The notes under the pieces were generated by a model. It did no database searches and was not told where the DNA came from. It saw only the letters and a program-made list of their open reading frames with translations. From NCBI GenBank assembly GCA_002011165.2, contig MTMI02000001.1, positions 1 through 51,574 of the forward strand: 51,574 nt of DNA, given 5' to 3'. This document shows, piece by piece, positions 17,674 to 43,923 of this stretch (position 1 is the stretch's first letter; every line of letters starts with the position of its first letter). The position numbers and the translations under genes were made by a program. This DNA comes from Candidatus Mnemosynella biddleae. Its GTDB lineage: Archaea; Halobacteriota; Archaeoglobi; Mnemosynellales; Mnemosynellaceae.

Positions 17674-20631
17674 ATGAGCGTCCATCACTCCTTGATGCTA
17701 ACAAGAATAGAAGTGGGATTCAAAGAGAGAATAATAGATGCAAGAGGCGAGAAGACTAAGAGAAGAATTATCGAAGATCTCGGAATTAGGATTGAAAAAG
17801 TTAAAACTGCAGACGTTTACACAATTCTCGGAGAGCTTGAAGAAGAAGAGATCAGAAAAATCTGCGAGGAGCTTTTCTGCGATCCCTTAATTCAAGAGTA
17901 TTCGATTAATGAGCCTTTGAATAGAGAGCATGACTGGATTGTGGAAATAGGATTTAAGCCTGGAGTTACCGATAACGTCGGGAAAACTTCAGAAGAAGGA
18001 ATAAAGGATCTTATCGGAAAGAGTGTAAGAGTTTTCACCTCCACTCTCTACTTCCTGAAAGGTGTCTCAAGAGATGAGGCTGAAAGGATTGCGAAGGAAC
18101 TTCTCGCAAATGAATTGATAAACAGGATTCACATCATGAGAGATGGAAGAGTTTTGGAAACACCGCTTGTAAAAGAGGAGCACAAACCCAGAGTTCAGAC
18201 CTTCAAGCTGAAGGAGATGAGCGATGAGGAACTTATGAAGCTAAGCGGAGAAAGAACTCTGGCGTTGAGTCTAGAGGAACTTCACGCAATAAGAGACTAC
18301 TTCTACAGCGAGAGGGTTCGAAGAGAGAGGATGGAGAGAGGTCTTCCAGAAGATCCCACGGATGTGGAGCTCGAAGCTCTCGCTCAAACATGGTCGGAAC
18401 ACTGTAAACACAAGATATTCAATGCTCTGATAGAATACGAGGACGAAGACACGGGAGAGAAGCTTGTGATTGACTCACTCTTCAAAACATTCATAAAAAG
18501 GAGCACAGAGGAGATCAGGGAGGAGATGGGAGAGAGAGATTTTTGCGTCTCGGTTTTCTCTGATAACGCGGGAATCATGAAGTTCAATGATGAATACAAT
18601 ATAGCTCTAAAAGTTGAAACCCACAATACCCCTTCTGCTCTTGACCCATATGGAGGAGCTCTAACTGGTATTCTCGGAGTAAACAGAGACGTTCTTGGAG
18701 CAGGAAAGGGTGCAAAACCGATTTTTAATACCGATGTTTTCTGCTTTGCCTCTCCATTTTACTCAGGAGAACTTCCTCCCAGAATCCTCCATCCAAAAAG
18801 AATATTTGAAGGTGTGAGACTTGGAGTCGAGCACGGCGGAAACAAAAGTGGAATTCCTACGATAAACGGGTGTATAGTATTTGATGACAGATATCTCGGA
18901 AAACCTCTCGTCTACTGTGGAACTGGTGGAATCATGCCCTCCGAGATAAACGGAGAGTTCTCTCATGAAAAGAAGACTGAAGATGGAGATCTCGCTGTAA
19001 TGGTTGGGGGAAGAGTTGGAAAAGATGGAATTCATGGAGCTACTTTCTCTTCTGAAGAACTTCACATCGCATCTCCGACGAGTGCAGTCCAAATAGGAGA
19101 TCCAATAACTCAGAAGAAAATGATGGATTTTCTTCTCGAAGCAAGGGATAGAGGCCTTATAAAATGCATTACAGACAATGGAGCAGGAGGACTTTCCTCC
19201 TCAATCGGAGAGACTGCTCAGTTCTCTAATGGATGTGAAATCTATCTTGAGAGGGTTCCCTTGAAATATCACGGTCTCGATCCATGGGAGATTCTCCTCT
19301 CTGAATCTCAGGAAAGGATGACGGTTGCAGTCTCTCCTTCAAAGATAGATGAATTTCTTGAACTTGCAAAGAAGAGAGATGTTGAAGCAACGATTGTTGG
19401 GAAGTATACAAGCACTGGAAAATTCCACGTCCTTTACGAAGGTAGAACTGTGGCGTATATAGATATGGAGTTTCTTCACCACGGTGTCCCTCAGATGAAG
19501 TTGAAAGCAAGATGGAGAAGAAGAAGACATGAAGAGCCAGAATTTGAACCAGATGATCTTAATGAAGAGCTTCTGAAACTTCTTTCTCGCCTGAATATCT
19601 GCAGTAAAGAATACGTCATTCGTCAGTATGATCACGAAGTGCAAGGAGGTAGTGTTGTGAAACCACTTGTAGGCGTGATGAACGATGGACCGAGTGATGC
19701 TTCGATCATAAGACCTATTCTTGAATCCTTCGAGGGTCTCGTTGTTTCAAACGGAATAATTCCGAGATATGGTGACATAGACACTTATCACATGGTTGCC
19801 TGTTCTCTCGATGAAGCTATAAGAAATAATGTTGCAGTAGGCGGAAATATAGACCACATGGCAGCTCTCGACAATTTCTGCTGGTGCGATCCTATAAAAT
19901 CCGAGAATAATCCTGATGGAGATTTCAAACTAGCTCAGCTCGTAAGAGCCAATATGGCTCTTTACGATTACACGAAAGCTTTCAGAGTTCCCTGCATCTC
20001 GGGAAAGGACAGTATGAAAAATGATTACGTATATGAGAACATAAGAATTTCAATTCCTCCGACCGTTCTCTTTACAGTTGTGAGCAAGATTGAAGACGTG
20101 AGAAAAGCGGTTACGATGGATGTGAAGAGGGAGGGAGATCTCGTTTACATTCTTGGATTCACGAGAGATGAACTTGGAGGTTCTGAATACTATGCCATGC
20201 ACGGCTACATCGGAAACAACGTTCCCAAAGTTAATGCCAAGGAGGCGAGGGAAAGATATCTGAAGCTGAGAAATGCGATTTACGAGGGAGTTGTAGCCTC
20301 CTGTCACGACTGTTCTGACGGAGGTCTCGCTGTTGCCCTTGCGGAATCAGCTTTCTCAGGAAGAATGGGCATGGAAATTCGTGCTGAAAGAATACCATCA
20401 GAAAAAATGCCTGTGGATCATCTTCTCTTCTCGGAGACTCAAAGCAGATTTATTGTCACAGTTCATCCAGAGCATCAAGAAAGATTTGAGGAGATCATGA
20501 GTGGAACGTGCTTTGCAGAGATAGGGGTTGTTAAGGGCGACTCTCTTATTGTGAAACACGAGGGAAGAGTTCTCATAAACACACCTATCGAAGCTCTTGA
20601 AGAAGCCTGGAAGAGAACTCTGAGGTGGTAA
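17674..20631 (+). CDS. purL: Phosphoribosylformylglycinamidine synthase, long PurL with N-terminal PurS-like repeats
   Basis: A 985-residue ATP-dependent synthase for step 4 of purine synthesis (FGAR to FGAM). Residues about 8-165 contain two PurS-like alpha/beta units (LTRIEVGFKERIID, then DWIVEIGFKPGVTD); the remainder is the PurL core. Core motifs include AQTWSEHCKHK, the ATP-site VETHNTPSALDPYGGA, TDNGAGGLSSSIGE and CHDCSDGGLAVAL in the second half-repeat. Small PurL proteins are about 700-750 residues with a separate PurS; this is the fused 980-residue type that still needs a separate glutaminase. PurQ follows immediately. The ATG at 17695 is an alternative start. Confidence 0.95.
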   Translation: MSVHHSLMLTRIEVGFKERIIDARGEKTKRRIIEDLGIRIEKVKTADVYTILGELEEEEIRKICEELFCDPLIQEYSINEPLNREHDWIVEIGFKPGVTDNVGKTSEEGIKDLIGKSVRVFTSTLYFLKGVSRDEAERIAKELLANELINRIHIMRDGRVLETPLVKEEHKPRVQTFKLKEMSDEELMKLSGERTLALSLEELHAIRDYFYSERVRRERMERGLPEDPTDVELEALAQTWSEHCKHKIFNALIEYEDEDTGEKLVIDSLFKTFIKRSTEEIREEMGERDFCVSVFSDNAGIMKFNDEYNIALKVETHNTPSALDPYGGALTGILGVNRDVLGAGKGAKPIFNTDVFCFASPFYSGELPPRILHPKRIFEGVRLGVEHGGNKSGIPTINGCIVFDDRYLGKPLVYCGTGGIMPSEINGEFSHEKKTEDGDLAVMVGGRVGKDGIHGATFSSEELHIASPTSAVQIGDPITQKKMMDFLLEARDRGLIKCITDNGAGGLSSSIGETAQFSNGCEIYLERVPLKYHGLDPWEILLSESQERMTVAVSPSKIDEFLELAKKRDVEATIVGKYTSTGKFHVLYEGRTVAYIDMEFLHHGVPQMKLKARWRRRRHEEPEFEPDDLNEELLKLLSRLNICSKEYVIRQYDHEVQGGSVVKPLVGVMNDGPSDASIIRPILESFEGLVVSNGIIPRYGDIDTYHMVACSLDEAIRNNVAVGGNIDHMAALDNFCWCDPIKSENNPDGDFKLAQLVRANMALYDYTKAFRVPCISGKDSMKNDYVYENIRISIPPTVLFTVVSKIEDVRKAVTMDVKREGDLVYILGFTRDELGGSEYYAMHGYIGNNVPKVNAKEARERYLKLRNAIYEGVVASCHDCSDGGLAVALAESAFSGRMGMEIRAERIPSEKMPVDHLLFSETQSRFIVTVHPEHQERFEEIMSGTCFAEIGVVKGDSLIVKHEGRVLINTPIEALEEAWKRTLRW

Positions 20632-32922: not shown

Positions 32923-33776
32923 AGTCTCTGAAATCCTCCCCTCTGCCTCAGGATGAGAGCTATCACTACGACGACAGCTATAGCACCGATCGCTCCGTAG
33001 ATGATCATTTTGCTTCTCCAAGCTGAGGCCTCAGCTTTTTCTTTGGCTTCTACTGCATATTCATAAGCTCTTTTCGCAGAATCTATTGCATTTTTCGCAG
33101 CAAGATAAGCCGATCCAGAAGTGCCCGCATTGTATAGACTCTTCGCATTCTCCAAAAATTGCTCCGCATTCTGAAGTTCAGCCTCTGCTAATGAGGTGTC
33201 TCCTCCTGCTTTCTCCGCATCATTTATTGCATCTTTTGCTTTCTCTATTTCCATTTCTGCTGTTTGAATGGCTGTAAGAGCATCTGAAATATCACTACTA
33301 GTCACATAGCTTTTGATATCTACTACCTTGAGAGTTTCGTAATTTCCTCCATCATTAACAGTCTGAAGGATTTTAACAACAGTCACTTGAGTTCTCTTCG
33401 TCACAACAGGAGCCTTACCGCTGAGAACTACTGAAATCTTCTCGAATTCCTGATGGTCCACTTCTATTGTGAAGTCTTTCGAGCTTCTCGAGATGGTGTC
33501 CACTGGATTGTCCTCTTTATCCAGAAGCTGAACGGTCCAAGAAATTGGAGTTGCTAACCCAGTTTCAAAGGAAAGAGTGGAAGTACCCAGAGAGTCTGCT
33601 CCAGGACCTTCTTCAAGAGTTATTTTGATTGTAACATCCTGATCCATCTGAAGTTCTCCGATACTTGGGATGTTCTGCGGAATTAGAAACGGACTCTGAT
33701 CATAATCCTCAGCAATTGCGAAGAACGGTAAAAGCAAAAAAGAGAAAACAACTAAAATCGGTAGAAGTTTTTTCAT
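32919..33776 (-). CDS. Secreted coiled-coil protein with C-terminal membrane anchor
   Basis: A 285-residue protein with a signal peptide (LPILVVFSFLLLPFFAIAED), a beta-rich outer domain (about 25-160), an Ala/Glu/Lys-rich helical stalk (about 165-245, with repeats of the EIEKAKDAINDAEKAG type), and a single transmembrane helix (IIYGAIGAIAVVVVIALIL) followed by a short basic tail. It would stand outside the membrane on a coiled-coil stem. The start overlaps cetZ by 4 bases, so it is translated together with CetZ. No known family recognised; an envelope or cell-shape role is inferred from context only. Confidence 0.85.
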   Translation of the reverse strand: MKKLLPILVVFSFLLLPFFAIAEDYDQSPFLIPQNIPSIGELQMDQDVTIKITLEEGPGADSLGTSTLSFETGLATPISWTVQLLDKEDNPVDTISRSSKDFTIEVDHQEFEKISVVLSGKAPVVTKRTQVTVVKILQTVNDGGNYETLKVVDIKSYVTSSDISDALTAIQTAEMEIEKAKDAINDAEKAGGDTSLAEAELQNAEQFLENAKSLYNAGTSGSAYLAAKNAIDSAKRAYEYAVEAKEKAEASAWRSKMIIYGAIGAIAVVVVIALILRQRGGFQRL

Positions 33777-34969
33777 AGATCCTCACCCTCATCAATCAAA
33801 GGCTTCAGCTTGTCATCATCAAAAATGTCAACCAACTTCTCCTCTGTAGAGGTAGAAAGACTCTTTATGCTCTCCTGAGCTTCTATGGCTATTCTCTGCA
33901 ACTCTTTCAACCTTGGAATATCAGTAACTCCAGAAAATAGGACAACTGCAGCCACTGAATTTGCTCTTGGTATTGGATGATCTCCTCCTCTTACCTCCGT
34001 TCCTCTTATCAAGCTCTCAACCCAGAGTTTAGCTTTCTCTATACCCTTCCTATCAAGCTCCTCAGGAGGTCCAGCAAGAAGGACGAGAGCTCTTTCTGCA
34101 GTCCTCACATCACACTGAATAGTTAATCTTCCCATCACCGCTCTTCTAACGAGAGAGGTTACCCTTGTTGTTGTATCAAGAGACTCAAGGGAAGATCTCT
34201 CCTTCTTCCTTCCGAAAAGACCTCCAAATCCCAAACCTTTCTTTCTTCTCACTTCTTCAGACGCATAGCCAACTGCTGTTATTCCGCCACCTCTCAGAGT
34301 GTTTATTATCTCAGCACTGTCAACAACCATCTCTCCAACTTCAGAACTTCCAGAACTTCCAGCCTCTCCTGCGCCGATTAGAACAGAGAATCGCTTCACT
34401 ATTTCCTCATTCATGTATCTGTAAGCATCCTGAAGCGTTTCTCCTTCTCTCTTCCAAAGATCGTTATCAAAGAGGAATAGATTGTCCACCTCATTTATCA
34501 GAGTCTTAAGACTTCTTGCAGCATTTAGAGAATAGAGAGCACCCTCATCCTTTGCAGGAAGAATTCCAAGAGCATAAACCGGCTCTATGTAGAGCCTTCT
34601 CAATCTTCTTGCCAAAACAGGAGCCCCACCGGATCCTGTTCCCCCTCCGAGACCTGCTACTATAAGAAAAGCGTCAACCTCGTGGGTTCCTCTTTTATCG
34701 ATGGCACTTTGAATTGTGTAAATGTCCTCTGCAGCTACTTTGGCTCCAAGCTCATTATCAGCTCCAACTCCGTGGCCTTTCACGATGGATTGACCTATGA
34801 GCAATCGATCTTCCATCGGTATGTGCTTTAATCCAAGAAGATCAGACTTTGCAGTGTTTATGGCCAGTGCTCTTACTATGGCATTCTGCTTCGTCCTCTT
34901 GTCATATTCGACGAAAAGATCAACTATCTTGCCACCTGCTTGCCCAAAGCCAATCATAAATAACTTCAT
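33773..34969 (-). CDS. cetZ: CetZ tubulin-superfamily cytoskeletal protein
   Basis: A 398-residue tubulin/FtsZ-fold GTPase clearly of the CetZ group. MIGFGQAGGKIVD is the CetZ N-terminus, VKGHGVGADNELG follows, and AGLGGGTGSGGAPVLAR is the tubulin signature loop that binds GTP. The T7-like EGALYSLNAARSL helix and the C-terminal domain are complete, with an acidic tail. In haloarchaea CetZ governs cell shape and motility. It has its own promoter (35001-35010) and a GAGGAGTGG ribosome site, and it is preceded by a PRC-barrel gene and followed by a membrane-anchored secreted protein. Confidence 0.95.
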   Translation of the reverse strand: MKLFMIGFGQAGGKIVDLFVEYDKRTKQNAIVRALAINTAKSDLLGLKHIPMEDRLLIGQSIVKGHGVGADNELGAKVAAEDIYTIQSAIDKRGTHEVDAFLIVAGLGGGTGSGGAPVLARRLRRLYIEPVYALGILPAKDEGALYSLNAARSLKTLINEVDNLFLFDNDLWKREGETLQDAYRYMNEEIVKRFSVLIGAGEAGSSGSSEVGEMVVDSAEIINTLRGGGITAVGYASEEVRRKKGLGFGGLFGRKKERSSLESLDTTTRVTSLVRRAVMGRLTIQCDVRTAERALVLLAGPPEELDRKGIEKAKLWVESLIRGTEVRGGDHPIPRANSVAAVVLFSGVTDIPRLKELQRIAIEAQESIKSLSTSTEEKLVDIFDDDKLKPLIDEGEDL

Positions 34970-36895: not shown

Positions 36896-37300
36896 ATGAG
36901 AAAAGTACTCGTCATGCTCATAATATTATCCTTTATGACATCTTTCGTGAGTGCTCAGGAGGAATATAGGATATCGATCAACTCCATTACCTTTTACATA
37001 AGCTCTCAGGAAATAAGCGTTGAAGTGAACTACAAAATGGAGAGCCTTACAGAGCTCTCCGTTCTGATGTTTGGAGATGCTCCAATAAAGAGAGATATTC
37101 AGAAGTTTTTTGGAATAGGGAATTTAACTTTCACAGAAGTAAATGAGACGAGTGCGAAATTCAATTTAGAACTGAGTGAGAAGGGAGTTCTTAAACCATT
37201 TGAGTTCAGCAAGGAGATCTCAGAGATTTCATTTGTCTTTGAAGATGGAACGAAGATAACTCTCCGTGACAGGAACGATACACCAACTGTTTTATTTTAA
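36896..37300 (+). CDS. Small secreted protein of unknown function
   Basis: A 134-residue protein with a signal peptide (RKVLVMLIILSFMTSFVSAQ) and a beta-rich mature domain of about 110 residues (strands such as SINSITFYI, ISVEVNYKM, AKFNLEL and ISEISFVF). There are no Cys and no second membrane helix, so it may be released or held by partners. The ATG at 36896 fits the TATA distance better than the one at 36884. It is divergent from the cetZ operon and overlaps the convergent Zn-ribbon gene by 9 bases. No family recognised. Confidence 0.75.
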   Translation: MRKVLVMLIILSFMTSFVSAQEEYRISINSITFYISSQEISVEVNYKMESLTELSVLMFGDAPIKRDIQKFFGIGNLTFTEVNETSAKFNLELSEKGVLKPFEFSKEISEISFVFEDGTKITLRDRNDTPTVLF

Positions 37301-37723
37301 CGAATTTTCTCCTTCAAGCTTCTTTTTAAAGATTGAAGGGAGATGTATGATGTAAGTTCCGTTTCCTCTAAGTGCCATTATAATCTCTTCTCTCTCAAAA
37401 AGAGCATTAAGATTGAGTTCGTATCTTCCCGGTTCCACTATGCGAATCGACTCCACATCATCGGGAGAGAGACCTTTTAGCTCCACCACCTTACCTTCTG
37501 GAGGGATCTCTTCTCCCTTTTTCATCTCTTCCTCAACTTTTGTTCTCCATTCTTTTTCCTTCTTCTTCACATATTCTGCAACCGTAACTTTCTCTGCCTC
37601 TTCTTTGCTTCTGAGATATAGGAATTTATTCCACCCGCACTCCGGACATCCGTGGAGAAGGACCTCAGAAGCTTCTTCATACACCTTTCCGCATTTAGTG
37701 CACATATGGGGCATATCACTCAT
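37292..37723 (-). CDS. oapC: OapC-like zinc-ribbon protein
   Basis: A 143-residue protein starting with a zinc ribbon, CTKCGKVYEEASEVLLHGCPECGW, split by the ribbon loop. A basic/acidic coiled stretch (about 45-75) and a beta-rich end (GRYELNLNALFEREEIIMALRG) follow. This is the layout of the archaeal Zn-ribbon proteins called OapC (origin-associated protein) in haloarchaea. It overlaps the DUF2073 gene by 8 bases. The function of the group is unknown. The symbol rests on family resemblance and the conserved gene order. Confidence 0.82.
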   Translation of the reverse strand: MSDMPHMCTKCGKVYEEASEVLLHGCPECGWNKFLYLRSKEEAEKVTVAEYVKKKEKEWRTKVEEEMKKGEEIPPEGKVVELKGLSPDDVESIRIVEPGRYELNLNALFEREEIIMALRGNGTYIIHLPSIFKKKLEGENSLK

Positions 37724-38081
37724 CCGCTTTACTCATTATTATAGCACTTATCAGCTTGTGATCCTTCTTTATCGTCTTCATTTTATTTGCAGGCCCTATA
37801 ATCGTCAATCTTGAGCGAGGGGTTTTCTTAAATATTTTTCCGAGAACACCACTCTTCTCGTGAGAGGGAGGATAACTCTCTATCTCTATTCCAGTGAAAT
37901 CTCCAGTTGCAATCTCCAGCATTGTTGTCTCTATGAGCTTTGCTTCTTCATCGGGAGAGAGACCGGATTCCAAAATCACGATCTTTCCCTTCTGAACCTC
38001 ATCGAGAATGAATCTAATCTTTTCCATTGTCGTCATTTCTCTCATGTGCTCTTGAGATATCATGTCTATCTGGATATCCAA
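37716..38081 (-). CDS. oapB: OapB-like DUF2073 protein
   Basis: A 121-residue protein of the DUF2073 type: MEKIRFILDEVQKGKIVILESGLSPDEEAKLIE at about 18-50, split by the turn, then FTGIEIESYPP and a C-terminal strand RLTIIGPANKMKTI. No enzyme motif is seen. It stands 12 bases after the Era-like GTPase and overlaps the Zn-ribbon gene, giving the three-gene order known from haloarchaeal origin regions. No Orc1/Cdc6 gene is in this window. Confidence 0.85.
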   Translation of the reverse strand: MDIQIDMISQEHMREMTTMEKIRFILDEVQKGKIVILESGLSPDEEAKLIETTMLEIATGDFTGIEIESYPPSHEKSGVLGKIFKKTPRSRLTIIGPANKMKTIKKDHKLISAIIMSKADE

Positions 38082-38093
38082 TCTTCTCCCTCC

Positions 38094-38738
38094 CTAACCG
38101 AAGTATTTTGCCATCGCCTCATATAACTTTTCCATATTCTCTCCCTTAAGTGCTGAAACGGGAACGACTGGATGCTGAGGAAAAGCACTTTTTATTCTCG
38201 TGGGAGACGCTCCAGGAAGATCGATCTTATTGGCCACTATGATAAGAGGGAGGCCTCTTGCTTCCATATTTCCAACTACGGTAACATTCACCTGAGTAAA
38301 TGGATTTTCTGTTGCATCCATAACTAGAAGAACTCCATCGAGATCATTCAACCACTTTATGGCTTCTATGACGCCCTCAGTTGCTTCTTTTGCCCTTTTC
38401 CTCGCCTCTTCCTCAGAGAGACCATGATGAAGAAAATCGTGAAAATCAATCTTCGTTGCTAAACCCGGCATATCAACGATATCAAGAGTTAAAGATCCTC
38501 CATTTATTTTTATTTTCACCTTTCCTTTCCTCTTCGCCCTTCTGGTCTCATGAGGTATCTCCGAGACCCCATTTAAAAGATCTCTGACGCTCCACTCTGC
38601 TTCAGCTCCCCAGTCCACAATGATTCTGTTGGCGAGAGTTGTCTTTCCCGCATTGGGTGGACCATAGATCCCTATTTTTACGTTGCCCTTTTTCAGCAGT
38701 CTTCTGAACCATCTCTTTATGCCATCTATGAAACTCAT
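38094..38738 (-). CDS. oapA: OapA-like Era-type GTPase
   Basis: A 214-residue small GTPase. G1 is IYGPPNAGKTTLANR, G3 is IVDMPGLATK, G4 is VANKIDLPG and G5 is VSALKGEN, all intact. The N-terminus is basic and amphipathic (FIDGIKRWFRRLLKKG), which could touch membrane or RNA. The Era KH domain is absent, as in archaeal OapA. First gene of the three-gene operon, divergent from the CBS gene array. A role in ribosome assembly or replication has been proposed for such proteins, but nothing here decides it. Confidence 0.88.
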   Translation of the reverse strand: MSFIDGIKRWFRRLLKKGNVKIGIYGPPNAGKTTLANRIIVDWGAEAEWSVRDLLNGVSEIPHETRRAKRKGKVKIKINGGSLTLDIVDMPGLATKIDFHDFLHHGLSEEEARKRAKEATEGVIEAIKWLNDLDGVLLVMDATENPFTQVNVTVVGNMEARGLPLIIVANKIDLPGASPTRIKSAFPQHPVVPVSALKGENMEKLYEAMAKYFG

Positions 38739-38818
38739 TCACATCTCTCCGTTCTTCTCCTCATCATTAAAATTTCCAGAATTTTAGTATATAAATGTGA
38801 GACCCCCTTGCAGTTGAA

Positions 38819-38863: not shown

Positions 38864-39424
38864 ATGGAAGGAAGAGTTCCAATCCGTGAGGTCATGACGA
38901 GAACTGTAGTCAGTGCCCCTCCAGAGATGGATCTTGTTAGCGCTGCCAGAGAGATGACAAAGAGAAAAGTAGGAAGCATAGTGATAACCGAAAACGGAAG
39001 TCCTGTAGGAATTGTTACTGAAAGAGATATCGTAACCAAAGTCATTGCTACTGGAAAAAATCCTTCTGAGGTGAGGTTAAAGGATATCATGAGTTCTCCG
39101 CTCATTACAATTTCTCCAAATGAAGATGTACTGGAAGCTGCAAAGCTTATGGTGAGAAATGATATCAGGAGACTTCCAGTTGTAGAACGTGGAGAACTTG
39201 TTGGTATAATTACAGACACAGATATCATAGCGATTTCAGCAGAAATGGGAGAAATAATATCCTCACTTATGGAGATTAATAGAGAGCCTCCCCTCATAGA
39301 AGGAGAGGAACTTCAACAAGGTATTTGCGAATCCTGTGGAAGTTTTTCAGAAAAACTGAAGTTTGTTTCTGGTATGCTTCTCTGCGAGAGTTGCAGAGAG
39401 GAGAAGGAGGAGGAAGAGGAGTAA
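38864..39424 (+). CDS. CBS-pair protein with C-terminal zinc ribbon (array member 1)
   Basis: A 186-residue protein: CBS1 (VMTRTVVSAPPEMDLVSAAREM to GIVTERDIVTKV) and CBS2 (IMSSPLITISPNEDVLEAAKLM, split at its loop, to GIITDTDIIAIS), then a zinc ribbon CESCGSFSEKLKFVSGMLLC and an all-acidic tail. CBS pairs bind adenosine nucleotides such as AMP, ATP or SAM; the ribbon suggests binding to nucleic acid or protein. The ATG at 38864 follows GGTGAGG; a GTG at 38855 falls inside that site. First gene of a five-gene CBS run ending in an RNA ligase. Confidence 0.88.
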   Translation: MEGRVPIREVMTRTVVSAPPEMDLVSAAREMTKRKVGSIVITENGSPVGIVTERDIVTKVIATGKNPSEVRLKDIMSSPLITISPNEDVLEAAKLMVRNDIRRLPVVERGELVGIITDTDIIAISAEMGEIISSLMEINREPPLIEGEELQQGICESCGSFSEKLKFVSGMLLCESCREEKEEEEE

Positions 39425-39437
39425 ACTGGTGATTTTT

Positions 39438-40217
39438 ATGAGAGTCGAAGAGATAATGTCCCGAGAATTTACGGTGATAAAGGAAGATGAATACGTGACG
39501 AAAGTGAGAAAAATAATGAGAGAGAGTGAGGCGAGAGCTCTCCCAGTGGTGAACGAAAAGGGGCATCTTCTTGGAATCATCACTGAATCCGATGTTCTTA
39601 GGGTTACTTCAACGAAATCCAACGTGACAGTTGATGGTTTCATAAAAGAGGTTCCTCCAATTTATCCTTTTACCGAGATTAGAGACTCAGCTTTAAAAAT
39701 TGTGGAGAGTGGAGAGGTGGAACTTCCGGTAACAAAATCAGAGGAGGATCCAGAAGTTGTTGGAGTTATATCAGTGAAAGATATCTTCAACGCTCTGGAA
39801 GAGAGAGAATTAAATAAAAGGATTTCCGAGATTATGACAGAAGATGTTGTCACGTGTTCTCCAGAGGATCCAATTTCAAAAGTCTGGAACAATATAATCG
39901 AATATGGATACACAGGATTTCCGGTAGTGAGAGACAAAAAGGTTGTTGGAATCATCACGAGAAGAGATCTTCTGAAATACGGGAGTATTAGAATAGGAAG
40001 AGAGGATGAGAGGGGTGGAAGATTGGCACACTCCCCAAAGGTTGAGAGAGCCATGACGTCTCCCGTTCAAACTATATCTCCTGAGAGTTCAGTTAAAGAC
40101 GCTCTCAAAATAATGAGAAAGTTGAACATAGGAAGGCTCCCGGTGGTTGATAAAAAAAAGAGTCTTCTCGGAATTGTAGACAGGTATGATATCATAAAAT
40201 CCTATTTCGAGGTGTGA
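39438..40217 (+). CDS. Four-CBS-domain protein (array member 2)
   Basis: A 259-residue protein built only of CBS motifs: about residues 1-60 (EIMSREFTVIKEDEYVTKV), 62-125 (a degenerate motif with IYPFTEIRDSALKI), 128-185 (IMTEDVVTCSPEDPISKV) and 200-258 (AMTSPVQTISPESSVKDALK). Each ends in the GIxT/VxxxD ligand-loop pattern. No enzyme domain is attached. The frame is open to 39363, but the ATG at 39438 with GGTGA upstream is where the first CBS motif begins. Likely a nucleotide-sensing scaffold. Confidence 0.88.
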   Translation: MRVEEIMSREFTVIKEDEYVTKVRKIMRESEARALPVVNEKGHLLGIITESDVLRVTSTKSNVTVDGFIKEVPPIYPFTEIRDSALKIVESGEVELPVTKSEEDPEVVGVISVKDIFNALEERELNKRISEIMTEDVVTCSPEDPISKVWNNIIEYGYTGFPVVRDKKVVGIITRRDLLKYGSIRIGREDERGGRLAHSPKVERAMTSPVQTISPESSVKDALKIMRKLNIGRLPVVDKKKSLLGIVDRYDIIKSYFEV

Positions 40218-40219
40218 AA

Positions 40220-41155
40220 ATGAAGAGATACTTCCCGGGAGAGAGGAAAGTAGATCCCTCAAGCACTGCACCGATGGATAGAGGCCCGGTGGAATTCAAA
40301 TCGAGAATCTCAGAGCATCCCGGAGACATTATGAAAATTGCAACGAAGAACGTCGTGAGCGTTCCTCCCACAACAACCATTATGGGTGCGGCTAAAACAA
40401 TGACGAAATACGGCTTCAGAAGGCTCCCGATAGTGGATGCAGGTTCTAGAAGACTTATGGGAATGGTAACCTCAATGGACATAATAGACTTTTTCGGAGG
40501 AGGAAATAGATACAATCTAGTGAAAAACAAATACGGAGGAAATCTTTTAGCTGCGATAAACGAAGAGGTTCGCGAAATTATGGAAGAGAATGTAATTTAC
40601 ATAACAGAGGATTATTCCATAAAAGAGGCGTTGAAGACTCTGAAAGAAAGAAACATCGGTGCTCTTCCTATAGTGAATGATGAGGAACAGCTTACAGGGA
40701 TCGTTTCTGAAAAGGATTTCGTTTTCATGGTGTCAGAAGAAGAGAAGCTCGATATTTTCGTTCATGAGTGTATGACAAAAGGGGTGAGAACTGCACCTCC
40801 TTCAATGACAATAGAGAGAGCTTCGAAGGAGATGATCTCGAAAGGTTTCAGAAGACTTCCTGTAGTTGAAGATAATATTCTCATAGGAATTGTTACTGCA
40901 TCAGATATAGTCAGATATCTCAGCACGGGAGAGGCTTTCTCGAAACTCGTAACAGGTAACGTGCAGGAAGCTCTTAATGTTCCCATCTCACACATAATGT
41001 CGAGAAATGTTGTTTTCACATCTTCTGACGTTGATCTTGCGAAAGTAGCGAGAATAATGATAAAAAACGACCTTGGAGCCCTTCCGGTAATAGATGGAGA
41101 TGATCTCGTGGGAATAATCACGGAGAGAGATTTCATAAAGGCGATGAAGGTGTGA
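40220..41155 (+). CDS. Four-CBS-domain protein (array member 3)
   Basis: A 311-residue protein. A basic N-terminal extension (KRYFPGERKVDPSSTAPMDRG) is followed by four CBS motifs, recognisable by GFRRLPIVDAG, NIGALPIVNDE, GFRRLPVVEDN and DLGALPVIDGD, each followed by a G(I/M)VxxxD turn. The first pair carries an insertion (FFGGGNRYNLVKNKYGG). The ATG at 40220 follows GAGGTG, which overlaps the stop of the previous gene. No catalytic domain. Similarity between the four motifs suggests internal duplication. Confidence 0.88.
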   Translation: MKRYFPGERKVDPSSTAPMDRGPVEFKSRISEHPGDIMKIATKNVVSVPPTTTIMGAAKTMTKYGFRRLPIVDAGSRRLMGMVTSMDIIDFFGGGNRYNLVKNKYGGNLLAAINEEVREIMEENVIYITEDYSIKEALKTLKERNIGALPIVNDEEQLTGIVSEKDFVFMVSEEEKLDIFVHECMTKGVRTAPPSMTIERASKEMISKGFRRLPVVEDNILIGIVTASDIVRYLSTGEAFSKLVTGNVQEALNVPISHIMSRNVVFTSSDVDLAKVARIMIKNDLGALPVIDGDDLVGIITERDFIKAMKV

Positions 41156-41161
41156 GATGAG

Positions 41162-42004
41162 ATGAGAGTTGAAGAGCTCATGAGCTCTCCTGTTTTCTGC
41201 GTAAATCCGGAAGATTCGGTTGCTCATGCGAGAAATCTACTCCTGAGCAAAAAAGTTGGGAGACTTGTTGTTGTGAGAGAAGAGGAGCCGGTGGGAATAG
41301 TCACAAAAACAGATTTAGCAAGACGACTCAGAGAATCGGCTCCAGAATGGAGAAGGAGACCAATTGATAGAATTCCAGTAAAGCTCGTGATGAGTGAAAG
41401 ACTAATTACGATAAGAAGTGATGCAGACGTTGAAGAGGCGATTAAACTTATGAGAGAACATGAAATAGAGGGTCTTCCTGTTCTCGAGGATGAGAGACTT
41501 GTTGGTATCATCACCTCAACTGATATTCTCTCATATTATATCTCAAAAGGTTATGACGAGAGAGTGAGAGACATAATGAAGAGTGAAGTTCCCGTAGTTC
41601 ACCGCTATCACTCGTTGAACAGTGTGATAGAAGAAATGGAAGAGAAAGATGCGAAAAGAGTTATTGTTGTAGACGCGGGCAACGTTCCTATAGGGATTAT
41701 TACAACTTCTTCCTTGGCTTATCTCACAGTGATAAAAACGTCAGGAGAGGTTCCTGAAAAAGAGGTAAAGTTTGTTAGAAAGAGCGAGAGTGGAGGAAGA
41801 AGAATTTACAGAGATGTTCATAGATTCATCCTCGTAGCTGAAGATGTTATGAGTTCTCCACTCATCACTATCTCACCTGAAGAAAAAGCATCAAAAGCTG
41901 CTTCTATCATGCTGAAAGAGAGGATCGGAGGATTGCCCGTGATTGAAGATAGAGAACTGGTGGGTTTGATAGAGAAGAGGTGCTTCCTCGAAAGATTGGG
42001 GTGA
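41162..42004 (+). CDS. Four-CBS-domain protein (array member 4)
   Basis: A 280-residue protein with CBS motifs at about 1-60 (LMSSPVFCVNPEDSVAHARNL), 70-135 (VMSERLITIRSDADVEEAIKLM, split by its loop), 140-195 (IMKSEVPVVHRYHSLNSVIEEM) and 220-280 (VMSSPLITISPEEKASKAAS). The third lacks the usual D in its final turn (GIITTSSLAY), so one ligand site may be lost. It starts 6 bases after member 3. Similar length and architecture to its neighbours point to tandem gene duplication. Confidence 0.88.
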   Translation: MRVEELMSSPVFCVNPEDSVAHARNLLLSKKVGRLVVVREEEPVGIVTKTDLARRLRESAPEWRRRPIDRIPVKLVMSERLITIRSDADVEEAIKLMREHEIEGLPVLEDERLVGIITSTDILSYYISKGYDERVRDIMKSEVPVVHRYHSLNSVIEEMEEKDAKRVIVVDAGNVPIGIITTSSLAYLTVIKTSGEVPEKEVKFVRKSESGGRRIYRDVHRFILVAEDVMSSPLITISPEEKASKAASIMLKERIGGLPVIEDRELVGLIEKRCFLERLG

Positions 42005-42008
42005 AATT

Positions 42009-42794
42009 ATGAAACTTGAAGATGTGATGAGTGATCCAATTTTCATAGACAAATCGGAGAGCCTTTCCTACGCTCTTGATGTGATGGAAAAGGAGGATAC
42101 AAGAAGGCTTCTTGTAGTGAGAGATGGGGTGGTTGAGGGAGTTCTGACTCTGAGGAACATAATGAGAGAGCTCGGGAGTAGAAAACATGGTTCTCTCTCG
42201 GCTTCCTCACTTAGAGTAGCTACCGCGGTTAGTCCCTCTGTTGAGCTTAGAGACCCCGAGACAGAGCTGAAAGACGTTCTCGGGAGGTTTGATGAAATCT
42301 CTATTATCATAGTTGGAAGTTCAATGGAAAAAGAAGATATAGATGGTTGGATTCGTCCGGTAGATGTAATTCCGCATCTCTCCATAGAGAGCTATGCAGG
42401 GAACATAATGAAGCCGAATCCTCTGACTTTTTCACCTCATGAAAGGATCGCTCATGCAAGAAGACTCATGCTTGAAAGAGATGTCGGAAGAGCTCCTGTG
42501 GTTGAAGATGAGAGACTCGTAGGAATAATCACTGAAAGAGAGATTGCAAGAGCTGAAAGGGATATCAGAGAAGATTTAACTGGAAGTCAGCAGGAGACAA
42601 GATTCAGAACAATGATCGTAGAGGATGTCATGACGGTGAATCCAAAATTTGTTTACACGAATGATGGTGCTGAGAGGGTTCTAGAACTCATGACGAAGGG
42701 GGGTGTAGGAGGGCTTCCCGTTCTCAATCTAGAAGAGAGAGTTGTGGGAATGATTGCAAGAAGAGATGTTATAAGGGCTGCATTGAATGATTGA
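42009..42794 (+). CDS. Four-CBS-domain protein (array member 5)
   Basis: A 261-residue protein with CBS motifs at about 1-60 (VMSDPIFIDKSESLSYAL), a strongly degenerate second one (60-125, ELRDPETELKDVLGRFDEIS), a third (about 130-185, IMKPNPLTFSPHERIAHARR) and a fourth (200-258, VMTVNPKFVYTNDGAERV). Its stop codon lies 8 bases inside the RNA ligase gene, so the two are translationally coupled. This physical link is the best clue that the CBS array acts with the ligase. Confidence 0.87.
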   Translation: MKLEDVMSDPIFIDKSESLSYALDVMEKEDTRRLLVVRDGVVEGVLTLRNIMRELGSRKHGSLSASSLRVATAVSPSVELRDPETELKDVLGRFDEISIIIVGSSMEKEDIDGWIRPVDVIPHLSIESYAGNIMKPNPLTFSPHERIAHARRLMLERDVGRAPVVEDERLVGIITEREIARAERDIREDLTGSQQETRFRTMIVEDVMTVNPKFVYTNDGAERVLELMTKGGVGGLPVLNLEERVVGMIARRDVIRAALND

Positions 42795-43923
42795 AGAGAA
42801 GTTAAGTGAGATATTAAAGATAGAGGAATTTAGAATAAGAGGATTCCTAAAGAGGAGAGTTATTTCCAAAGCAGGAAAAGTCGGAAAAGCGGAGCTTTAT
42901 AGATTAGAAAGAGATGCAGGAGGATATGAACAAGGGACCGTGATTGTTATAGGTGAGGAGCCAAAACTCATCAGAGGCTATCCGAAAATAAAAAGAGTTC
43001 TTGTTTTAACTCCTACGATTGAGAAGCACTTTCATTCGATTCCCAAAGTTGGAATTGAGGAGAAAATGAACGGATACAACGTGAGAATTTGTTTAATTGA
43101 AGATGAGCTAGTGGCTCTGACCAGAGGAGGGTTAGTATGTCCCTATACAACGCACAAAGCTGAAGAGGTGATTGACAGAGCTTTCTTCGTTGATAATCCT
43201 GAAATGATACTCTGCGCCGAAGCAGTGGGACCAGAAAATCCTTATGTTCCCAAGGATGTTTATGATGTGAGATCACTGGGTTTTTTCGTTTTTGACATCA
43301 TGAGAGATAACAGAAGAGTCCCAATAAAAGAAAAACTGGAGATCTGCGATAGCTACGGAATAAAAACAACCACATTCTTTGGTTTCTTCTCTAAGAATGA
43401 GGCTCCAAAAGAGATTATGAAAATTGTAAAAAGGCTTGGAGAGAGAGGAAGGGAGGGAGTTGTTGTGAAAGATCCTGAAATGAGAATAGAGCCTCTGAAA
43501 TACACAAGTTCAGAGAGTAATTGCGGTGATCTGAAATACGCTTTTAGGTTCTACAATGACTACGGAGTTCATTTTTTCCTTTCGAGAGTTGTCAGAGAAG
43601 CTTTCCAATCTTTTGAATGGGGAGAGAACGAAGAGGAGAGATCGAAAAGAATAGAGAGAGTTGGCAAAAACATACTTGAGCCGATGATTGAGACTATAGA
43701 GAGAGTTTCCAGAGGAGAGAAAATTGGAGAAAGAGTTACACTGAGAGTTAGAGACCTGAACGTGATTCACAAATTCCAGAGACATCTGAGAAGACTTGGA
43801 ATAGATGCATCTTTCGGAGAGATAAAAGAAGAGAATGGTGAATTTGTAGTGGAGATGACAAGATACTATACGAGCACAAATGACAAAACTAAATCCATTC
43901 TTGAAGGAGGGACATGGAGTTAA
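42787..43923 (+). CDS. Archaeal ATP-dependent RNA ligase (Rnl3/Pab1020 family)
   Basis: A 378-residue homodimer-type RNA ligase. Motif I is EKMNGYNVR with Lys93 as the expected AMP acceptor. Motif III-like sequence is seen in YDVRSLGFFVFDIM, motif IV in GREGVVVKDPE and motif V in EPLKYTS. The N-terminal region (to about 75) and the helical C-terminal dimer domain (240-378) fit Pab1020/MthRnl, which seal or circularise RNA. Lengths match. It overlaps the last CBS gene and ends tail-to-tail with the aminotransferase gene. The in vivo RNA substrates of this family are not well defined. Confidence 0.92.
   Translation: MIEEKLSEILKIEEFRIRGFLKRRVISKAGKVGKAELYRLERDAGGYEQGTVIVIGEEPKLIRGYPKIKRVLVLTPTIEKHFHSIPKVGIEEKMNGYNVRICLIEDELVALTRGGLVCPYTTHKAEEVIDRAFFVDNPEMILCAEAVGPENPYVPKDVYDVRSLGFFVFDIMRDNRRVPIKEKLEICDSYGIKTTTFFGFFSKNEAPKEIMKIVKRLGERGREGVVVKDPEMRIEPLKYTSSESNCGDLKYAFRFYNDYGVHFFLSRVVREAFQSFEWGENEEERSKRIERVGKNILEPMIETIERVSRGEKIGERVTLRVRDLNVIHKFQRHLRRLGIDASFGEIKEENGEFVVEMTRYYTSTNDKTKSILEGGTWS

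Follow-up and report, generated by a model that had tools for sequence, protein, structure and literature searches.

The six genes at positions 38864-43923 of the window (the whole 51,574-nucleotide stretch of Candidatus Mnemosynella biddleae DNA that was analyzed) probably form a ribosome-dormancy operon that ends in a co-acting RNA-sealing enzyme. Judged from its sequence, the array of five CBS genes is a ribosome-hibernation operon and not primarily a ligase regulator, since CBS2 to CBS5 are orthologous to the ribosome-bound proteins SriA to SriD and match the cluster CM-5/4/1/2. The arrangement recurs in most of the ligase-carrying related archaea examined, which suggests that ribosome shutdown and RNA mending are linked. 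Rnl3 ligases have no settled natural role, and the first descriptions of ribosome hibernation in archaea are very recent; a hibernation operon containing both a ligase and a CBS protein with a zinc ribbon would join these two questions and can be studied in the genetically tractable Methanosarcina. No report was found of Rnl3 and the two-CBS zinc-ribbon protein CBS1 as regular members of hibernation clusters, no paper in the literature on CBS proteins together with an archaeal RNA ligase, none in the open literature on Sri, and none on MTH1221.

Organization of the CBS-ligase locus

The genes are arranged head-to-tail on the plus strand, five CBS genes (2+4+4+4+4 motifs) being followed by the Rnl3 RNA ligase gene. 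CBS1 (38864-39424, 186 aa) consists of one Bateman pair (2 CBS motifs) and a C-terminal Cys4 zinc ribbon. The next four genes encode tetra-CBS modules, namely CBS2 (39438-40217, 259 aa; SriA ortholog), CBS3 (40220-41155, 311 aa; SriB ortholog, MJ1225-like), CBS4 (41162-42004, 280 aa; SriC ortholog) and CBS5 (42009-42794, 261 aa; SriD ortholog). The last gene (42787-43923, 378 aa) encodes an ATP-dependent RNA ligase of the Rnl3 family. The intergenic gaps from CBS1 to CBS5 are 13, 2, 6 and 4 bases long, and CBS5 and the ligase gene overlap by 8 bases, the ligase start codon overlapping the CBS5 stop. GGTG-type ribosome binding sites were read upstream of all five CBS starts. A TATA-like element TATATAAATG (38788..38797, plus strand), read from the sequence as a putative promoter, is located about 70 bases 5' of CBS1, between this gene and the divergent arvA. 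The six genes look like one operon.

These coordinates agree with the initial annotation, which had described five adjacent CBS genes with gaps of 2-13 bases and the 8-base overlap. The Pfam search (PF00571) returned 2+4+4+4+3 motifs for CBS1 to CBS5; the eighteenth motif, the second of CBS5, is degenerate, yet the alignment of orthologs shows it as a CBS motif. Genome-wide, 36 CBS motifs were found, 17 of them in this array (Pfam). With about 14 CBS genes among about 1600, five consecutive ones were obtained in 0 of 200,000 random draws; conservation across archaea is the stronger case against chance.

The divergent operon arvA-arvB-arvC (oapABC; 37292..38738, minus strand) encodes a GTPase, OapB and the OapC zinc ribbon (PF09846, PF09845). 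It adjoins the array in 23 of the fetched loci, a count in which some genomes appear twice. Besides tRNAs, no RNA families were detected in the window. A toxin-antitoxin reading was dropped, as the operon is without a nuclease, and a relationship to IMP dehydrogenase was rejected, as IMPDH models match only via the CBS motifs and far under the cut-offs.

CBS2 to CBS5 and ribosome hibernation factors

SriA to SriD are CBS proteins solved on the Methanosarcina acetivorans 70S ribosome (PDB 9znf, 9zng and 9zni, released January 2026). The entry titles name this ribosome with SriA/SriB (9znf), SriD (9zng) and SriC/SriD (9zni), and Methanosarcina uL14 is present in the same entries. The best PDB chain was a different Sri protein for each of CBS2 to CBS5, with phmmer E-values of 3e-59 to 2.4e-85. 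CBS2 matched SriA over the full length (9znf chain 4; 3e-59), CBS3 matched SriB (9znf chain 5; 2.4e-85), CBS4 matched SriC (9zni chain 6; 1.9e-63, and rank 1 in Foldseek with E 4.5e-31) and CBS5 matched SriD (9zng and 9zni chain 7; 4.3e-62). In the tree, every array position forms one clade with 99-100% support (CBS2 99/97, CBS3 100/100). By these sequence comparisons, CBS2 to CBS5 are full-length, one-to-one orthologs of SriA to SriD. Ribosome binding is known from the Methanosarcina orthologs only and is attributed to this organism by orthology.

CBS2 to CBS5 also match the CM-5/4/1/2 hibernation cluster, of which CM-1, CM-4 and CM-5 were described in dormant ribosomes (Madru et al., 2026; PMC13324472). 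The tetra-CBS architecture of the Sri/CM factors is present in CBS2 to CBS4 with four motifs each and in CBS5 with three plus the degenerate one. Genomes with Sri/CM factors are expected to lack HibA. Judged by CBS motif count and length, no HibA-like four-CBS gene (~390 aa) was found in this genome; the sole other four-CBS gene encodes ~286 aa and is HhpR-like.

The segment between CBS motifs 3 and 4 is conserved in CBS2, CBS4 and CBS5. The loop of CBS2 in this segment (39981..40037, plus strand; consensus GxARIxxEDE, G182 and R185 with 90% conservation or more) lies at the same place as the ribosome-contact loops of Dri and HibA (PMC13324472). For CBS4, a beta-hairpin with invariant R206, G212 and R217 was predicted here (41756..41830, plus strand; AlphaFold2, local pLDDT ~55). 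An N-terminal extension of CBS3, DRGPVEFKSRISEH (40220..40327, plus strand), is kept in full arrays and absent from the CBS3 of Archaeoglobaceae.

Adenylate motifs were scored as [ST]xx[DN] within the CBS motifs (AMPK gamma type). They are kept in 2/2 cases in CBS1, 4/4 in CBS3, strictly in 2/4 in CBS4 and in 1/4 in CBS5, where they are mostly lost. Across full arrays, both sites of CBS1 are 100% conserved, and each of the four in CBS3 reaches 98% or more. As far as motifs can tell, intact adenylate sites are concentrated in CBS1 and SriB (CBS3), which are likely AMP/ATP sensors, and the partly degenerate CBS4 and largely degenerate CBS5 would serve mainly as plugs. The HibA CBS module prefers AMP, which counts for the dormancy model; binding of HibA to the ribosome showed no clear change with AMP or ATP, which counts against it (PMC13324472). 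In this model, SriA to SriD would sit on idle 70S ribosomes, their tetra-CBS modules blocking the mRNA channel and the peptidyl-transferase centre by analogy with Dri and HibA.

The RNA ligase, CBS1 and their genomic neighbourhood

The ligase reached 402.6 bits against TIGR01209 (cut-off 136.9) and passed the curated cut-off of PF18330 (Lig_C; 1.1e-44); it also matched PF09414. Its PDB matches include 5d1o (7.2e-95) and 2vug (PAB1020; 8.7e-56); entries 9znf, 9zng and 9zni were not among the matches of this search. The adenylation motif EEKMNGYN (KxNG; 43057..43080, plus strand) contains the nucleophile K93, and E91, E92, K93, N95, G96, Y97 and N98 are invariant in 17 diverse homologs.

The zinc ribbon of CBS1 (39320..39397, plus strand) is formed by C155, C158, C174 and C177, which are invariant alignment columns in 22 and in 43 orthologs. 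The early assignments of an Rnl3-type ligase and of a zinc ribbon on the first member are thereby confirmed. The AlphaFold2 model of CBS1 has a pLDDT of 84, and its nearest whole-length fold analogue is Ta0289 (Foldseek, 1pvm/2qh1). No close solved relative was found among PDB chains, those of 9znf, 9zng and 9zni included; CBS1 as a ribosome-bound protein was dropped on this search.

Neighbourhoods were surveyed in a set of 295 genomes, with Methanobacteria outside the set. Of 121 Rnl3 loci, 108 have CBS genes immediately upstream of the ligase, their order being constant, and this neighbourhood is kept in Methanosarcinia and Archaeoglobi. The conserved link supposed in the initial annotation is therefore present, and CBS genes are not generally missing beside Rnl3 in the genomes surveyed. 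Where Rnl3 and CBS5 co-occur, they are adjacent in 55 of 59 cases and at most 12 kb apart in 3 more; Rnl3 and CBS1 are at most 12 kb apart in all 98 genomes listed. The ligase is the optional last gene of the array. In many families its last position is fixed and often overlapping; in several lineages complete arrays occur without it, which counts against the dormancy model. In some lineages, a GTPase of the EF-Tu-like or the 50S-binding type is encoded directly after the ligase, which counts for the model.

In the initial annotation, the CBS proteins were proposed to form a nucleotide-sensing complex, which would tune RNA ligation through contact with the ligase. This fits the co-directional, conserved neighbours in most Rnl3 loci, the intact adenylate motifs of CBS1 and CBS3, and the Archaeoglobaceae, which of the array retain only CBS1 and CBS3 beside the ligase. 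SriA, SriC and SriD were not found in any Archaeoglobaceae genome searched, which also weakens the dormancy model. However, the orthologs of CBS2 to CBS5 bind the ribosome and complete arrays exist without a ligase, so that the whole array is not just a ligase regulator. In addition, CBS1 is present in 234 of the 295 genomes and Rnl3 in only 119, and in two Archaeoglobaceae (G014 and G229), which retain CBS1 and CBS3 as a pair, no Rnl3 match exceeded the cut-off. The proposal is supported in part; in its original extent it is rather improbable, and a narrower link of CBS1 and CBS3 to the ligase is possible, because in Archaeoglobaceae these two are kept with it.

In the dormancy model, the co-translated ligase would work in the same low-energy state and seal or circularise RNA ends. 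RNA circularisation with ATP is known for MthRnl (PMC5599603) and is assumed for this ligase by analogy. Ligation by MthRnl is inhibited in vitro by ATP in excess and not by AMP (PMC5599603), so that sealing would be favoured at low ATP. As the most likely substrates we infer C/D-box sRNAs or the broken rRNA in idle ribosomes; any contact between CBS proteins and ligase is inferred as well. In Thermococcus, deletion of rnl led to a loss of C/D-box circles and to a build-up of rRNA fragments around the sarcin-ricin loop and close to the 5' end of the 16S rRNA (PMC9014305), which counts for the model. The effect on rRNA is possibly indirect and was seen in a single replicate (PMC9014305), which counts against it.

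CBS1, SriB and the ligase may form a smaller unit, because Archaeoglobaceae keep this trio without SriA, SriC and SriD. Tentatively, this unit could repair rRNA on dormant ribosomes under the control of the energy state, with adenylate-loaded CBS1 and SriB recruiting or licensing the ligase and nicks, e.g. near the sarcin-ricin loop, being resealed before the ribosomes wake. If true, hibernation would be coupled to a repair step dedicated to ribosomes.

Another explanation is shared regulation only, with stress co-expression of array and ligase, circularisation of C/D-box sRNAs by the ligase (with HARP elsewhere) and idle ribosomes left untouched. In this genome, HARP is present and unlinked (HARP on contig C11, ligase on C1), i.e. 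not within 5 kb of the ligase. In five loci Rnl3 lies near HARP, and none of these has the array; HARP and the CBS array never occur together beside Rnl3 in the loci examined. These findings, the published co-occurrence of HARP and Rnl3 (Seshadri and Gopalan, 2025; PMC12153264) and the separability of array and ligase agree with shared regulation, but the fixed last position of the ligase and the rRNA fragments in Thermococcus do not, and we regard this explanation as unlikely. HARP and the CBS array are alternative genomic partners of Rnl3 in these loci.

A signal route, in which the ligase-AMP intermediate yields diadenosine polyphosphates by side reactions and hibernation is controlled through their binding to the CBS modules, is highly improbable. 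Adenylating ligases can produce such dinucleotides and CBS modules can bind Ap4A (AcuB with Ap4A, 9s4y), but there is no evidence for the reaction in Rnl3, and arrays are also present where the genome lacks the ligase.

Comparison with known systems

The ligase shares family, catalytic motif and C-terminal domain with the Rnl3 ligases PAB1020, MthRnl and TkoRnl. The context differs, since a CBS array is found here rather than HARP. Compared to the HARP-Rnl3 pairs, the ligase is the same and HARP is also encoded in the genome, whereas linked HARP is found only where the array is absent.

Like CBS1, the CBS-rubredoxin-like protein Ta0289 combines a CBS pair with a metal ribbon. With ~24% identity over a loose whole-chain superposition, this is a likeness of fold. 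CBS3 resembles MJ1225 and the AMPK gamma subunits in its four kept adenylate motifs, but it is without a kinase partner and its ortholog is ribosome-bound.

The closest parallels are the hibernation factors. The CM-5/4/1/2 cluster consists of the same clustered tetra-CBS families, although the text of the paper names neither a ligase nor zinc (PMC13324472). Dri of Pyrobaculum calidifontis is similar to CBS2 in its N-terminal half (CM-5; phmmer 9e-16) and to CBS4 in its C-terminal half (CM-1; 4.6e-11), which fits the assignment of CM-5 to CBS2 and CM-1 to CBS4, and it likewise has loops between motifs 3 and 4. Dri is a single fused protein, whereas four separate genes are found here.

Layout and conservation of the CBS-ligase locus

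The six genes described in the initial annotation, five consecutive CBS-domain genes (CBS1 to CBS5) followed by a gene for an Rnl3-family ATP-dependent RNA ligase, were reproduced exactly in their positions (38864-43923, + strand), gaps (13, 2, 6 and 4 bases) and 8-base overlap. Of the 18 CBS motifs claimed, 17 were matched by Pfam, out of 36 in the whole genome (1.5 Mb, 11 contigs), and the 18th, the second of CBS5, is degenerate. The block looks like one transcription unit: each of the five CBS genes has a GGTG-type ribosome-binding site before its start, the start of the ligase and the stop of CBS5 overlap, and a single TATA-like element lies upstream of CBS1.

Of the 295 genomes in the phylum sample, 119 contain a match to the Rnl3 model TIGR01209 above its cut-off. 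A total of 121 loci was analyzed, comprising 40 fetched Rnl3 loci, 80 named ones (a few genomes are common to both sets) and the window. In 108 of these, CBS genes are located immediately upstream of the ligase in the same direction; the pattern noticed initially, and its presumed conservation, were right. Assigned by best match, the order 1-2-3-4-5-ligase was found in 63 loci and 1-3-ligase in 18 Archaeoglobaceae-type loci. In two further loci, L070 and L144, one gene separates array and ligase, and locus L146 is interrupted by a contig end. In the phylum sample, 59 genomes carry both Rnl3 and CBS5, which are adjacent in 55, within 12 kb of each other in 3 and on different contigs in 1. The distance between Rnl3 and CBS1 is within 12 kb in all 98 genomes listed with both. 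In a tree of the four-CBS proteins, each array position forms one clade with 99-100% support, so the gene order is ancestral in these lineages. The closest named relative in the scan was Candidatus Mnemosynella bozhongmuii (Archaeoglobi; 69% ligase identity).

The Methanosarcina locus L144 (2430-3698) carries a fused tandem duplication of CBS1 with 4 CBS motifs and two zinc ribbons. The contig of L135 (PWFU01000072.1), filed as Candidatus Dojkabacteria, is probably mis-binned archaeal DNA, since its array layout and coordinates are identical to those of Methanosalsum natronophilum (L128).

The divergent neighbor of the array is arvABC (oapABC; 37292-38738, - strand), known as an extracellular-vesicle GTPase operon in Haloferax (PMC10927574). 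Besides the window, it adjoins the array in L045, L046, L056-L058, L073, L155-L164, L167, L173 and L174. The count of fetched loci with this arrangement is 23, in which some genomes appear twice and most of the fetched ligase-less arrays are included. Directly after the ligase, an EF-Tu-like GTPase was found in a 22-locus cluster, mostly Methanosarcinaceae (L052, L053, L107, L140 and others), a small GTPase of the 50S-binding type in a cluster of nine loci with several ANME-2 (L063, L078, L098), and DUF1464 in Archaeoglobaceae. A CetZ tubulin-like gene (33773-34969, - strand) lies a few genes upstream, and the window also encodes a 985-aa protein with PurS and PurL-type domains in a single chain (17674-20631, + strand).

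Orthology to ribosome-bound proteins

The best solved relatives of CBS2 to CBS5 are separate chains of three cryo-EM entries, matched over the full length with E-values between 3e-59 and 2.4e-85: 9znf_4 (CBS2), 9znf_5 (CBS3), 9zni_6 (CBS4) and 9zni_7/9zng_7 (CBS5). A Methanosarcina uL14 query matches the same entries, which identifies them as ribosomes. Their titles, obtained by Foldseek with the predicted CBS4 structure, name the 70S ribosome of M. acetivorans together with SriA/SriB, with SriD or with SriC/SriD. By sequence, CBS2 to CBS5 are therefore orthologous to ribosome-bound proteins. CBS2 to CBS5 would correspond to SriA, SriB, SriC and SriD, respectively, the names within each pair being judged by entry titles, the numbering of the chains and gene order. 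They may bind the ribosome in this organism as well. In CBS2, CBS4 and CBS5, CBS motifs 3 and 4 are separated by a conserved non-core segment, at the same place as the ribosome-contact loops of the hibernation factors Dri and HibA; by analogy, these segments would contact the ribosome. In CBS3 the conserved segment is an N-terminal extension. The only other four-CBS gene of the genome (L177 311-1171; about 138910-139770 on the ligase contig) falls outside the Sri clades, on a long branch, and may encode a module of the HhpR type (CM-3).

CBS1 is the only array member without a ribosome-bound ortholog. It consists of one CBS pair and a C-terminal ribbon whose four cysteines are invariant (predicted model, pLDDT 84); its closest whole-length analog, in a loose superposition, is the CBS-rubredoxin-like Ta0289. 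CBS1 was found in 234 of 295 genomes, compared to 125 for CBS5 and 119 for Rnl3.

Separability and nucleotide motifs

Complete 1-2-3-4-5 arrays lacking the ligase are present in several families, and the array therefore works on its own. Among the 59 genomes of the class sample, orthologs of SriA and SriC are limited to the genus of the window and the f3 genomes; neither was found in any of the 55 f2 (Archaeoglobaceae-type) genomes, nor was SriD in those covered by the CBS5 search. Since these genomes keep CBS1 and SriB (the latter in 53 of 55) despite these absences, CBS1, SriB and the ligase persist as a trio. Two of them (G014 and G229) retain CBS1 and SriB with no ligase match above the cut-off. 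CBS1, and SriB of full arrays, retain the nucleotide motif [ST]xx[DN] in full; SriC retains less of it, and most of it is gone from SriD. The presumed adenylate sensors would thus be the two proteins that stay with the ligase, and either might contact it. The nucleotide sensing proposed initially is reasonable, but what the array is mainly known to target is the ribosome.

Ligase and comparison with known systems

The residues of the ligase adenylation motif are invariant, so the enzyme should be active. Ligation by the Rnl3 ligase MthRnl is inhibited by ATP and not by AMP (PMC5599603). Ligase deletion in Thermococcus kodakarensis abolished C/D-box sRNA circles and yielded fragments of rRNA, located near the sarcin-ricin loop and at the 16S 5′ end, which may be indirect according to the authors (PMC9014305). 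The ligase could act on rRNA or sRNA in dormancy. HARP, the published Rnl3 partner (PMC12153264), is unlinked to the ligase in this genome. Five loci, all array-less, have HARP close to Rnl3, as against none of the 108 array-bearing loci, an alternation that is a pattern and not an independent-sample statistic because the lineages are clumped.

Regular membership of Rnl3 and CBS1 in the array was not reported in the literature searched, which excluded the Sri publication, and its novelty is claimed within that limit. The CBS array itself is of an already known kind. CBS2 and CBS4 match the N- and C-terminal halves of Dri, respectively, which fits their being CM-5 and CM-1. A CM-5/4/1/2 gene cluster was described independently in archaea by Madru et al. 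(2026; PMC13324472), together with clustering of CM genes in 10% of archaeal genomes and dormant ribosomes that contain CM-1, CM-4 and CM-5.
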